From positions 9,985,464 to 10,049,463 of the forward strand of contig CM049320.1 in assembly GCA_026874595.1 (NCBI GenBank): DNA of 64,000 nucleotides. Direction: 5' to 3'. Below are positions 5,010 through 49,582 of the stretch, one piece after another. Numbering within the stretch: the stretch's first letter is position 1; every line of letters begins with the position of its first letter. This DNA comes from Sipunculus nudus. Lineage: Eukaryota; Annelida; Sipuncula; Golfingiida; Sipunculidae. The notes under the pieces are model-generated. The model was not told the DNA's origin. It did not search any database and worked only from the letters and a program-made list of their open reading frames with translations. The position numbers and the translations under genes are program-made.

Positions 5010-5212
5010 TGTTACCGGATGCAGATAAAAGCCGACCAAGCTGTCTCGCTGTTGGAGCTTTCTTTTCCAGCGAAGCGGTTGAAATACCGGACATGTGCGC
5101 CCCCGACATGAGTTCGAATCCCGGATCGGTCTGTCACACCCCAGGAAGAAATGGACGACCAGGTTTCTTTAAACGCTAAATCAGGCAGATTGAAACTCTC
5201 AGGTAACACAAA
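5010..5212 (+). mobile_element. tRNA-like short LTR, divergent copy (T1)
   Basis: Starts TGTTACCGG, then ATAAAAGCCGACC, then an A-box-like CAGCGAAGCGGTTG and an intact B box AGTTCGAATCCCGG, with GGATCGG following. This is the order seen in the copies at 15637, 49001, 49277 and 49428. The 3' part differs from those copies; a GTAACA at 5207-5212 is a possible end. It could be a related subfamily or a damaged copy. Confidence 0.6.
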
Positions 5213-5394: not shown

Positions 5395-5925
5395 TTTGAT
5401 AAACACTCGCAGTTCACTTGTTAACACCTCCCCGGATCACATGATCGACGCGCAAACGTGACATCGGAATGTAACCTATAAGCTCAATCTGCTTACACGT
5501 TGTGTACACAAGGATTCTTCAGCGCTACACGCCACCAATCAACTGTCCTTCGCGAGAGTACGCGCTCGTCCCTCAAAGCAGAGTCCACAAAGCACAGACT
5601 GATAGGCGCACAGCTTATTCTAAATGAACTTAAAAGTAATGTCTTGCACAGCTGGTGATTTCATCCAGCATCAAATACCTGAATATGCCCCCCCCCCGTA
5701 CCTTTATCGTTTAGCGTATAAATAATATCCCGGCCTGTTACTGGAAGTGCTCATGGTAGTTACAGATCGCCGGTTTACCAGTCCTTCGGTTTTTTCAATA
5801 CCCTCTCTGTAGCCCGTTACATAGGTATCTGCGTGGCCGTCCCGAAACAGTGAAGATTTACGCTTACAGCTGTTTAGAATCTGATAAACGCAGACATGCC
5901 TCTGGACTGCAGACAGTCGTCATAC
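5395..5925. repeat. Dispersed repeat R2, copy 1
   Basis: About 530 bp closely matching 16758-17285 in the same orientation. Shared landmarks include CCGGATCACATGATCGACGC, CTTCAGCGCTACAC, GCGCACAGCTTATTCTA, GTAATGTCTTGCACAGCT, CCTGTTACTGGAAG and AATCTGATAAACGCAGACAT. No coding capacity is recognised. It may be an LTR or non-autonomous element; its position 0.4 kb beyond the gypsy polypurine-like tract leaves open that it is part of that element's 3' LTR, but the matching 5' copy was not found. Confidence 0.7.
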
Positions 5926-15494: not shown

Positions 15495-15636
15495 TATTTA
15501 TATATCAATGATCACTGTAGTAAACATAATTAAACACATTTACTATATTACTATATTACTATATATTGTTCACGTGCATGTTATAATTTATTAGAAGCAA
15601 GGCTGATCGTATTCGATAACACTTTGTAGTGTAGTT

Positions 15637-15792
15637 TGTTATGAAGACAAATTGTTAAGGGGAAAATTCTTGGCTGATCCGGGAGTCGAACCCATGTCGG
15701 TGGCGAACAAGTCCGGCGTACCAACCGCTTCGCTAGTGCAGCAAGCTTCGCTAGCGAGACAGTTCGGTCCCCTTTTATGTCGCCCCGTAACA
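15637..15792 (-). mobile_element. tRNA-like short LTR, copy T2
   Basis: 156 bp. In minus orientation it runs TGTTACGGGGCGACATAAAA to CTTCATAACA. It carries an A box (TAGCGAAGCGGTTGG) and B box (GGTTCGACTCCC) about 43 nt apart, the spacing of a real tRNA gene. Its 5' edge touches a purine-rich AGAGAGAGTG. It is the 3' member of a structure whose other end is LTR-B copy B. Confidence 0.85.
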
Positions 15793-15914
15793 CACTCTCT
15801 CTTAAGAGCGTTCTGCTATCAGAACAAGACTAATTATCCCAGAAGTCACACTTTGGTGAGCTTATTTCCTGGGCCACAAGGTTTATCGTCATCCCGGACG
15901 AGCCCCCAATTTTA
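15793..15914 (-). other. 120-bp internal region with tRNA-Pro-type primer-binding site
   Basis: On the minus strand, just after the LTR-B end, 15891-15908 reads TGGGGGCTCGTCCGGGAT. This is the 18-nt sequence known as the proline-tRNA primer site of murine leukaemia virus, i.e. the complement of a tRNA-Pro 3' end. The remaining ~100 bp match 49157-49276 (GTGTGACTYCTGG, TTCTGATAGCAGAA). They end in purine-rich AAGAGAGAGTG against T2, a polypurine-tract position. It encodes nothing. Confidence 0.85.
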
Positions 15915-16752
15915 TGTTACGGAACCTAATAGCAACAGATCATGTATGCGTGATGATCAAATATTTTGTCAAGGAGATAAAAAAATCAGATTCTGTTACA
16001 CTAGGCAGCGTGAAATGTCTAGGGCAATGAATAAAGAAGTCAGTGTTTTTTTGTTAACAAATAACTATAATTTATTCTTAAAACAACCCTACATTACAAT
16101 ACACTAAATCAATACAATTACACAGTATAACAGCGGTATAACAACAAAGCAATACAATCACACTGTAAAATAAACAAAGAGCACAGTACCTGAATACCAC
16201 CACTGTCACAACGATAAGTCCTTTTAAATGTATATGCCAGATGAAAAGTCCACGCCAATCCTTTCGGAGAATAACAGTCAAATGTAAAGCTATTGTAACA
16301 ATCAAAAGGAAAGTAAACTTGAGGCAGGCAGCATTAAATTGTTTAGATTTAGTAATAGTAGAATCCCTGAAATTACTGGATAATCGGACAGGTACCACAA
16401 ACTGAAATAAACACGTCCGTGCCCGCCGGAATATTTTCTCACCTCTCTCTCTCGGCTCTCTCACAGCCACCTATTTATAACTTCTTGCCCCGAGCCGAGA
16501 ATTTTCCACTTCTCGAACAGTCTAAAGGATCTAACATAATATCCAGTAAACACGCGTTACAGGAATCATCTAGAAGAACATCGCTGTGTCTCTACATACC
16601 AGGGTAAACACGTGAGTCCGACCCGGCCCGGCCAGGCGAAAAAACCCCAAGCTAGCATGACAACGAGAGTTCAACCAGTACGGATTAAACTGAGAGTGCA
16701 ACTACAACACGAGTTACACCCGCGTCACACAACAAAAAGAGCAACTGTAACA
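15915..16752 (-). mobile_element. LTR-B copy B (838 bp) next to a PBS
   Basis: In minus orientation it opens TGTTACAGTTGCTC at 16752 and closes TTCCGTAACA at 15915. TATAAATAGGTGGCTG at about 16470-16490 is a probable Pol II TATA box, and AATAAATTATAG near 16070 contains a poly(A) signal. The PBS six bases past its 3' end identifies it as a 5' LTR. No gag or pol follows: 120 bp later comes the unrelated short LTR T2. It is inserted inside R2 copy 2. Confidence 0.88.
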
Positions 16753-17285: not shown

Positions 17286-17348
17286 GTCAATTGGGGAATG
17301 GTGGCTTGAAGTAATGGGTTAATTACTGCCACCTAGTTCACCAAAAAG

Positions 17349-17538
17349 TGTGACTACTGGGTAAATTAGTCTTTTTCTGAAGGCAGAACGCTCTAAAGAG
17401 GAGTCGTGTTAATGAATGAATATAAGAGTGGACCGAACTGTCTCGCCTGTAAAGCTTGCCGGACATATACGCCATAGACAGGGGTTTAAATCCCGGATCG
17501 GCTCAATATTTTCCCCTGAGAAAAATGTTTACGTAACA
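17349..17538 (+). mobile_element. Internal fragment plus tRNA-like short LTR, copy T3
   Basis: 17349-17406 matches the internal region of the miniature element and ends in AAAGAGGAGTCG. From 17407 a degenerate short LTR (TGTTAATG, then GTGGACCGAACTGTCTCGCC) ends TTTACGTAACA. The A box is degraded; the B box reads GGTTTAAATCCC. The orientation is opposite to T2. Confidence 0.75.
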
Positions 17539-26577: not shown

Positions 26578-27268
26578 TGTTACAGATGCCCCTTTTATTG
26601 TGTGCAGCGGTCTTACAGATGATTGTTTTATTGTGCACACGGATGTTCCATGTGTTGTTGGCATTTTGTTTGTAGGCCAAGCGTAGCTCGTGTTCTGGCG
26701 GCCTCGCCTGGCCGGATGTTGCAGGCTCGTTTAATCCGCATTGGTTGAACCCTAGAGACACAGCGTTCCTTGTTCTAGTATGTTCTTTGAAGGTGTGTAC
26801 TGTGTTAGATCCTTAAGATTGTTCGAGCAATGGAAGGTTCTCGGCTGAAGGTGAGAAGTTATAAATAGGGGGCTGTGCTTTAGAGCCGAGAAAGAGGTGA
26901 GAAAATATTCCAGCGGACACATAAGCGTGTATGTCAGTTTGTGGGACCTATTCCGATAAGTGCGGCAGTTATAGATTTTCTTCAGACTTTCTTCTGGATT
27001 TGTGACGAATCTTACTTTGTCTTCAGTTTACTTTCGGGATTGTTACAAGAGCTTTACACTGGACTGTTATTCTCCGAGAGAATTTGTGTGAACTGTTCGT
27101 CCGGCTTATACATTTTAAAGGACTTGTCGCTGTGACAGTGGTGGTATCCAGGTACTGTGCACTTTGATTATTTCACTGCGTGATTGTATTAATTTGTTGT
27201 TATACTGCTGTTATACTGTGTAATTGTATTGATTTAGTGTATTGTAATGTTAGGGTTGTTTTAAGAAT
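26578..27268 (+). mobile_element. LTR-B copy C (3'-truncated)
   Basis: Opens TGTTACAGATGCCCC after AAAATATAT, has TATAAATAGGGGGCTGTG at about 26861 as a probable TATA box, and stops after TTGTTTTAAGAAT where copy D begins. Relative to D it lacks the last ~150 bp, including the poly(A)-signal region and the GTAACA end. Confidence 0.88.
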
Positions 27269-28114
27269 TGTTACAGTTGCTCTTTTTTTTGTGTAACACG
27301 GGCGTAACTCATGTTGTGGCGCCCTCGCCAGGCCGATTGTTTCACTCTATGTGTAATCCGTACTGGTTGAACTCTCTCTGTCATGCTAGCTTGGGGCTTT
27401 CTCGCCTGGCCGAGGTCACGTGTGGACCCTGGTATGTAGAGACACATACAGCGATGTTCTTCTAGATGATTCCTGTAATGCGTGTTTACTGTGTTGTGTA
27501 AGATCCTTTAGACTGTTCGAGAAGTGGAAAATTCTCGGCTTGGGGTGAGAAGTTATAAATAGGGGGCTGTGTTTTAAACCTGGAGAGAGGTTAAAGAAGA
27601 TTCCAGCGGACCCAGACGTGTGTATGTCAGTTTGTGGGACCTGTCCGATTATACAGTAATTGCAGGGATTCTACTGTTACTAACTCTATACAATTTAATG
27701 CTGCCTGCCTCAAGTTTACTTTCTGGATTGTTACAAGAGCTTTACATTGGACTGTTATTCTCCGAGAGGATTGGTGTGGACTTTTCATCCGACGAAGGCA
27801 TTTTAAAGAGCTTGTCTTTGTGACGGTGTTGGTATCTAGGTACTGTGCACATTGTTTACTTTACTGTGTGATTGTATTGATTTGTTGTTATACCGCTGTT
27901 TTACTGTATAATTGTATTGATTTAGTGTATTGTAATGTTAGGGTTGTTTTAAGAATAAATTATAGTTATTTGTTAACAAAAATCCACTGATTTCTTTATT
28001 CATTCCCCTAGACATTTCACGCTGCATAGTGTTACAGAATCTGATTTGTTATCTCCTTGACAAAATTTCTGTTCATCACGCGTAACATGATCTGCTGATA
28101 TTAGGTTCCGTAAA
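27269..28114 (+). mobile_element. LTR-B copy D (essentially full length)
   Basis: About 846 bp, TGTTACAGTTGC to TTCCGTAAAA, differing at the end from the TTCCGTAACA of copy B. A TATA box region (TATAAATAGGGGGC) lies at about 27554 and AATAAATTATAG at about 27954. It sits directly behind copy C with no internal region between them. Several short open frames inside are not conserved among copies A-D. Confidence 0.9.
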
Positions 28115-49000: not shown

Positions 49001-49004
<4 letters not shown>

Positions 49005-49156
49005 ACGAAGACAAATTATTCAGGGGAAAATACTGGGCCGATCCGGGAGTCGAATCCATGTCGGTGGCGCACAAGCCCGGCGTACCAACCGCTTCGCTAG
49101 AAAAGCAAGCTTCACTAGCTCGACAGTTCGGTCCGCTTTTATGTCACCCCGTAACA
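49001..49156 (-). repeat. tRNA-like LTR, copy T4
   Basis: Complete copy: TGTTACGGGGTGACATAAAA ... GTCTTCGTAACA. A box TAGCGAAGCGGTTGG, B box GATTCGACTCCC and GGATCGGCC are present. The purine-rich AAGAGGGAGTG lies against its 5' edge. Confidence 0.88.
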
Positions 49157-49276
49157 CACTCCCTCTTAAGACCTTTCTGCTATCAGAACAAAACTAATTA
49201 TTCCAGGAGTCACACTTTAGTGAGCTTATTCCCTGGACCATAAAAGTTTACCGTCACGTTGGACGAGCCCCCATTT
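49157..49276 (-). other. Internal region of the miniature element: PBS to polypurine tract
   Basis: 120 bp. PBS TGGGGGCTCGTCC at 49261-49273 (minus), then GTTTTGTTCTGATAGCAGAA-type sequence shared with 15793-15914 and 17349-17406, then TCTTAAGAGGGAGTG. Confidence 0.85.
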
Positions 49277-49382
49277 TGTTACGAAGACAAATTATTCAGG
49301 GGTAAATATTGGGCCGATCCGGGATTCGAACCCATGTCGGCGGCGCACATGTCCGGCATACCAACCGCTCCGCTATAAAAGC
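49277..49382 (-). repeat. tRNA-like LTR, copy T5, 5'-truncated
   Basis: Retains AGCGGTTGGTATGCC, an intact B box (GGTTCGAATCCC) and the CGTAACA end. The first ~50 bp of the LTR and the distal part of the adjoining internal region are deleted together at 49382/49383. Confidence 0.85.
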
Positions 49383-49427
49383 CTGGGCCACGATGTTTTT
49401 TACCCTCACCTTGGACGAGCCCCCATT

Positions 49428-49578
49428 TGTAACAAAGACAAGTTATTCAGGGGAAAATACTGTGCCGATCCGGGAGTCGAGGCATGTCGATGGCGCACAA
49501 GTCCGGCGTACCAACCGCTTCGCTAGAAAAGCAAGCTTCACCGGCGAGACAGTTCGGTCCGCTTTTATTTCACCCCGT

Positions 49579-49582
<4 letters not shown>
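49428..49582 (-). repeat. tRNA-like LTR, copy T6
   Basis: 155 bp, 5' LTR of the array (PBS at 49413-49425 on its 3' side). A box intact; B box degraded (GCCTCGACTCCC). Its 5' end TGTTACGGGG abuts (TA)n at 49583. Confidence 0.87.

Follow-up and report, generated by a model that had tools for sequence, protein, structure and literature searches.

What kind of element lies at positions 49001-49582 of the stretch of Sipunculus nudus DNA considered here (64 kb in all, hereafter the window), and how could so short a unit have been transcribed, copied and inserted? The reading favored here, to which a probability of roughly 80% is given, is that of an old Helenus-type TRIM of about 430 bp (LTR of 156 bp, internal part of about 118 bp), non-coding and dependent for its movement on proteins from a larger LTR retrotransposon, whose life cycle would include a Pol III start, priming by tRNA-Pro, occasional fold-backs and switches to a partner template.

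The A and B boxes of this copy run in the same sense as its PBS and PPT, all on the minus strand, a point that the earlier note leaves unsaid, and along which the order is full LTR, truncated internal part, 5'-truncated LTR, full internal part and full LTR, with three LTR copies within 49001-49582 (Table 1). The earlier note had described a simple LTR-PBS-internal-PPT-LTR layout with an A and a B box in each LTR: the direct repeats, the PBS (TGGGGGCTCGTCC, present twice), the PPT and the boxes are indeed real, but with a third LTR copy and truncated parts this is not one clean unit, and while all three LTRs hold an A box and a B-like site, the B box of the 5'-most LTR is damaged, with 2 mismatches. 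The outer repeats (49001-49156 and 49427-49582) are 91.1% identical over 157 columns, so that the copy is old. Its flanks read ATAT on each side, and because they sit inside an (AT)n run, the target duplication of this particular copy is uninformative. Besides the features of Table 1, the window holds two adjoining pieces of reverse transcriptase frames (Pfam RVT_1) at 950-2272 on the minus strand, likely a degraded retroelement.

Table 1. Features of the TRIM family and of its putative partner in the window; the parts of the copy at 49001-49582 are given first, 5' to 3' on the minus strand.
Feature	Positions	Strand	Sites and remarks
5'-most LTR	49427-49582	-	A box 49525-49515; degraded B-like site 49483-49472; T4 49457-49454
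Truncated internal part, about the first 45 nt only	49383-49426	-	PBS 49425-49413
Middle LTR, without about the first 50 bases	49276-49382	-	A box 49375-49365; B box 49333-49321
Full internal part	49157-49275	-	PBS 49273-49261 (13 nt, tRNA-Pro type); PPT TTAAGAGGGAGTG 49169-49157
3' LTR	49001-49156	-	A box 49099-49089; B-like site 49057-49045; T4 49030-49027
LTR of second TRIM copy, 3' LTR of chimera	15636-15792	-	
Internal part of second TRIM copy	15793-15914	-	18-nt PBS TGGGGGCTCGTCCGGGAT; PPT-like end
Putative partner LTR (838 bp)	15915-16752	-	TGTTACAG..CCGTAACA; TATA-like near 16480; AATAAA near 16076
TRIM LTR fragment, without PBS	5010-5129	+	A and B boxes, one mismatch each
TRIM degraded internal part and LTR	17345-17538	+	
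Second partner LTR copy, without PBS behind	27269-28113	+	

Is this arrangement peculiar to one damaged copy, or that of a family? In the genome (1,426,538,692 bases in 153 contigs), the exact junction between LTR end and PBS occurs at 521 places, against none for a reversed control. The sample studied consists of the first 91, in genome order, among 100 of these places (L009-L098), of which 86 loci were grouped into 90 clusters, leaving out L011, L013, L016 and L026 for overlap or duplication. LTR-internal-LTR copies make up 57 of the clusters and tandem or complex copies another 18, followed by 6 with one LTR and an internal part, 4 inverted ones, 3 single LTRs and 2 pairs of LTRs without an internal part between them; as the sample was chosen by the PBS, the share of solo LTRs cannot be read from these counts. 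The single units listed are mostly 398-444 bp long, and tandem copies are spaced 275 bp. Exact 4-bp target duplications flank 35 of the 56 testable copies (29 of 48 once eight likely segmental duplicates, L069-L074, L076 and L077, are removed), compared to a mean of 6.6 and a maximum of 12 after shuffling, and 15 of the 35 contain a G or a C. The PBS is present in 53 of 57 internal parts, in places that were themselves chosen for it, while the PPT TTAAGAGGGGGTG is exact in 5 of the 14 internal ends shown and altered in the others (by eye); the form of the window copies, AAGAG[AG]GAG, was found in 0 of 57 internal parts. Across 48 neighboring LTR pairs, identity has a median of 0.91 and reaches 0.955 at best, and no young copy was seen among them. 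The earlier note had named single units devoid of PBS and target duplications as the outcome that would speak against it, and in this junction-selected sample the 57 LTR-internal-LTR clusters and 35 duplications mostly go the other way.

The tRNA-like promoter is a more delicate matter. A and B boxes paired with at most two mismatches in all occur five times in the window, always inside TRIM family copies, whereas 60 simulated windows contain 0.03 such pairs on average. Among 106 near-full LTRs taken from L009-L078 (L013 and L026 being left out for overlap), 69 have an exact A box and 57 the B box GGTTCGANNCC; both follow each other in the expected order in 38 when one B position is relaxed, and the spacing between them is 32 nt in 32 of the 39 LTRs measured. 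The ten LTR pairs of highest identity each keep the A box and the core of the B box in at least one LTR. Conservation of the A-box columns was rejected as support, because the mean pairwise identity of the A box (0.893, against 0.86 for the whole LTR) is reached by 31 of 143 LTR windows, so that no special conservation was found in the 106 LTRs. Nor was a tRNA fold detected: ARAGORN (bacterial code) reported no tRNA in the window, no Rfam match reached the gathering level there, and tRNA covariance searches of 20 loci gave no match up to an E-value of 10; on these three results a functional tRNA was set aside. The earlier note was right in placing a tRNA-like promoter motif in the LTR of a TRIM.

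In 84 of the 106 LTRs a T4 run follows the B box at a distance of about 14 nt, and in 51 a further one directly precedes the A box, so that each LTR looks like a transcription unit of the tRNA type, about 85 nt long. Pol III would most likely start 12-18 nt upstream of the LTR A box, pass the weak T4 that follows the B box of the 5' LTR, and stop at the T4 of the 3' LTR. Since a T4 follows the B box, any full-length Pol III transcript must read through a terminator-like site before it reaches the PBS, and this site could stop Pol III there; nowhere is the model weaker than at this read-through. Some retroviruses likewise read through a poly(A) site in their 5' LTR. A depletion of T4 in the internal part was considered as support and rejected, as 46 of 57 internal parts are free of it where a fraction of 0.73 is expected.

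Could the boxes be idle instead? A conventional, Pol II-transcribed TRIM, with CATAAAAG near the LTR start as its TATA box and with boxes that are the remnant of a SINE or tRNA once taken up by the LTR and now without a role in transcription, appears unlikely without being negligible. It would account for the column identity of 0.935 of this TATA-like motif at LTR positions 14-21 (10 of 150 windows are as high), as well as for an A box without special conservation and for the T4 after the B box; however, it sits poorly with the order and spacing in which the two boxes are kept, with their retention in the ten most similar LTR pairs, and with AATAAA being present in only 4 of 106 LTRs. Hardly any credit is given to a tRNA-derived SINE whose repeats would be tandem SINE units: the boxes and the tandem arrays are what such an element would leave, but properly placed PBS and PPT, TG..CA ends, 4-bp duplications and joins with the partner at the PBS are not, and the SINE was rejected on the PBS, the PPT and the duplications. 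Pol III remains the putative polymerase of the TRIM.

How would such a transcript be copied? The 13-nt PBS is of the tRNA-Pro type, as the earlier note had said; we take it to be a match to a tRNA-Pro primer after the model of the murine leukemia virus type of PBS. One locus (L054) consists of an LTR, an insert of about 62 nt and LTR positions 84-157, with ATAC as the duplication on either side (by eye). The insert is presumably the complement of tRNA-Pro as far as the D loop with a few changes, and although an Rfam search of it gave no tRNA match, this copy seems to carry some 62 nt of its primer. Behind the first 13 nt of the PBS, with one mismatch allowed, AACGT follows in 40 of 62 internal parts and GGGAT in 16, the latter being what the tRNA would template up to its nucleotide 18. 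On a tree of the 62 copies, built to look for repeated change between these two forms and with the 6 rows of other states left out of the count, the PBS form changes 11 times, where shuffling gives about 14; values as low came up in 10 and 14 of 500 shuffles, and only 1 change is forced by starred branches.

With tRNA-Pro annealed to the PBS, minus-strand DNA would be made, and the PPT would then prime a plus-strand strong-stop DNA that ends once 18 nt of the tRNA have been copied. According to a review (PMC13191261), plus-strand strong-stop DNA of retroviruses halts at the 18-nt primer sequence through tRNA modification, and synthesis passes A58 when the methylating enzyme is mutated. Normal completion would yield the LTR-internal-LTR copies and their 4-bp duplications. 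Some strands, however, may have taken another path, as the final 8 nt of this strong-stop DNA (TCCGGGAT) form the complement of ATCCCGGA at the LTR B box, so that these strands could fold back, prime on themselves, and give copies made of LTR, PBS and inverted LTR that integrase would still insert. Alternatively, copying into the T arm of the tRNA before a switch would produce nearly the same junction.

Such copies do exist. The junction from PBS to antisense B box is found at 41 places in the genome with at most one mismatch, and at none for the control; at 33 of them the 26-nt signature alone was seen. With one mismatch, this signature is equally what a simple copy of the tRNA-Pro T arm would give, so the true fold-backs of that pattern number 41 at most. 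The other eight places (L015, L016, L025, L041, L089, L099, L100 and L101) were read, and an inverted LTR is present in all eight, to which L068, with two mismatches and most of its first arm absent, adds a ninth fold-back outside the 41. Three simple fold-backs with both ends present bear 4-bp duplications (by eye): TGGC at L015, AGGA at L089, where the LTR start is altered to TGAT and the inner part deleted, and CCTT at L099. At L041, the inverted TRIM LTR continues into an inverted partner LTR between AT-run flanks, L025 is complex, and L100 and L101 were seen without their left ends. BLAST places the end of the inverted arm at LTR base 115 for L015, L025 and L068, which is where ATCCCGGA ends (register by eye), and TCCGGGAT, its complement, is the expected end of the 18-nt strong-stop DNA. 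Other joins were also observed. At L100 (minus strand, 1-320), internal part, PPT and LTR are followed by PBS and inverted LTR, as in a fold-back starting from a longer plus strand, and L012 shows a third type of switch, from PBS to sense LTR, with tandem units of about 60 bp (minus strand, about 1439-1570) that contain LTR 109-157 and the PBS, are joined at CGGGATCGG, and look like a sense-strand template switch.

Did these copies instead take shape in genomic DNA once inserted, through recombination, microhomology repair or the nesting of one insertion in another, rather than during reverse transcription? Several observations would suit such an origin, which is judged improbable for the fold-backs and chimeras taken together. 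The chimera in the window lacks a target duplication, L025 is complex, and some of the loci belong to duplicated regions: several among L069-L077 are alike, and L015 and L016 are near-identical neighbors, 2.85 kb apart in one satellite array. At L089, moreover, 6 of 30 other LTRs resemble the second arm more than the first arm does, in a comparison over 47 bases only. On the opposite side, the three simple fold-backs stand in unrelated places, each with its own 4-bp duplication at the outer ends, which suggests a single insertion of a finished fold-back, and the junction falls where the strong-stop end is predicted. At L015, the first arm is at least as near to the second arm as any of 93 other LTRs, the best of which equals it at 0.939. 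The satellite around L015 and L016 has units that contain AGCTGGCAGACACCAG. The fold-back copies are read here as self-primed strong-stop DNA, the self-priming step being inferred. A wider proposal, for and against which the odds appear even, is that the captured tRNA-like promoter has an unintended side effect: as its B box corresponds to the T arm in the priming tRNA, plus-strand strong-stop DNA could prime on its own LTR and the hairpins would be integrated by their two U3 ends, fold-backs then being a predictable by-product of LTRs with a tRNA promoter, to which the common PBS form that leaves the tRNA sequence after 13 nt may be linked.

Which element could have supplied the proteins? In the window, an 838-bp LTR is joined via the PBS to the internal part of the second TRIM copy, and no target duplication was found by eye around this chimera of 15636-16752 (CTGC and AACT). 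The junction of this LTR with its PBS occurs at 289 genome places with at most one mismatch, and at none for the control, and the two elements have in common the ends TGTTAC/GTAACA and the PBS. Behind the partner PBS, L031 shows a leader and then a putative gag-like start (283 nt were read behind the LTR). At 26753-27268 and 5404-5915 the window holds further repeats, 78% and 74% alike, with kinship either to the region of the partner LTR or to what precedes it. Four chimeras of TRIM and partner were seen, that of the window, L101, L041 and L027, the last with 160 columns of partner leader (90.6%) between the PBS and internal part of the TRIM, flanked by AT runs. These joins are observed and would result from template switching with the partner; those at the PBS fit a switch within one particle, the shared particle and the moment of the switch being deduced. 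The element with the 838-bp LTR is the likely helper of the TRIM, and the suggestion of the earlier note that a partner acts in trans was apparently right.

Taken together, these features bring the family close to a known system. The available text of the Helenus paper (Kojima 2024, PMC10886601), the only one found among papers naming Helenus from 2023 on, describes TRIMs with tRNA-like LTRs, records them from six animal phyla, molluscs among them, and gives 4-bp duplications for those of animals. By the features compared, the element is Helenus-type: it is TRIM-sized with two LTRs and no proteins, and has A and B boxes in the LTR, a PBS, a PPT and 4-bp duplications, the likeness being one of described features. 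The same text gives tRNA-Pro among bivalve primers, which recalls the tRNA-Pro-type PBS found here, predicts the tRNA to be mostly non-functional and notes tandem arrays for one family, in both of which the present TRIM is alike. The distinct design that the earlier note had announced was therefore already in print. Other TRIMs are more distant, as far as the accessible portions of their descriptions go: plant Cassandra (PMC7215508) shares tandem arrays and LTRs that carry a Pol III promoter sequence, but its promoter derives from 5S rRNA; biv-TRIM of bivalves (PMC6934838) also forms tandem arrays, but has TDRs of 202-218 bp, an internal part of 77-80 bp, no clear PBS and a PPT that is mostly GGGGAGA; and PbTRIM of the harvester ant (PMC3532108) is, as here, an animal TRIM.

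What looks new, no earlier description having been found in the literature searched, is the record of the tRNA primer in the copies, the likely helper and the fold-backs tied to the B box; in particular, no report of fold-back or self-primed TRIM copies was found in that literature, which covers few subscription journals. In the part of the Helenus paper at hand (PMC10886601), no complementarity is given between the tRNA-like part and the PBS, whereas here 8 nt of the end of the 18-nt PBS pair with the LTR B box and fold-backs occur. These fold-backs, and the apparent insert of primer tRNA, look like genomic traces of reverse-transcription steps, and they could be counted wherever a genome harbors elements of this type. 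The partners of animal Helenus elements are, in the same available text (PMC10886601), proposed from PBS similarity, while that of the present TRIM is drawn from chimeric copies, which with one partner LTR provide a concrete candidate in the same genome.
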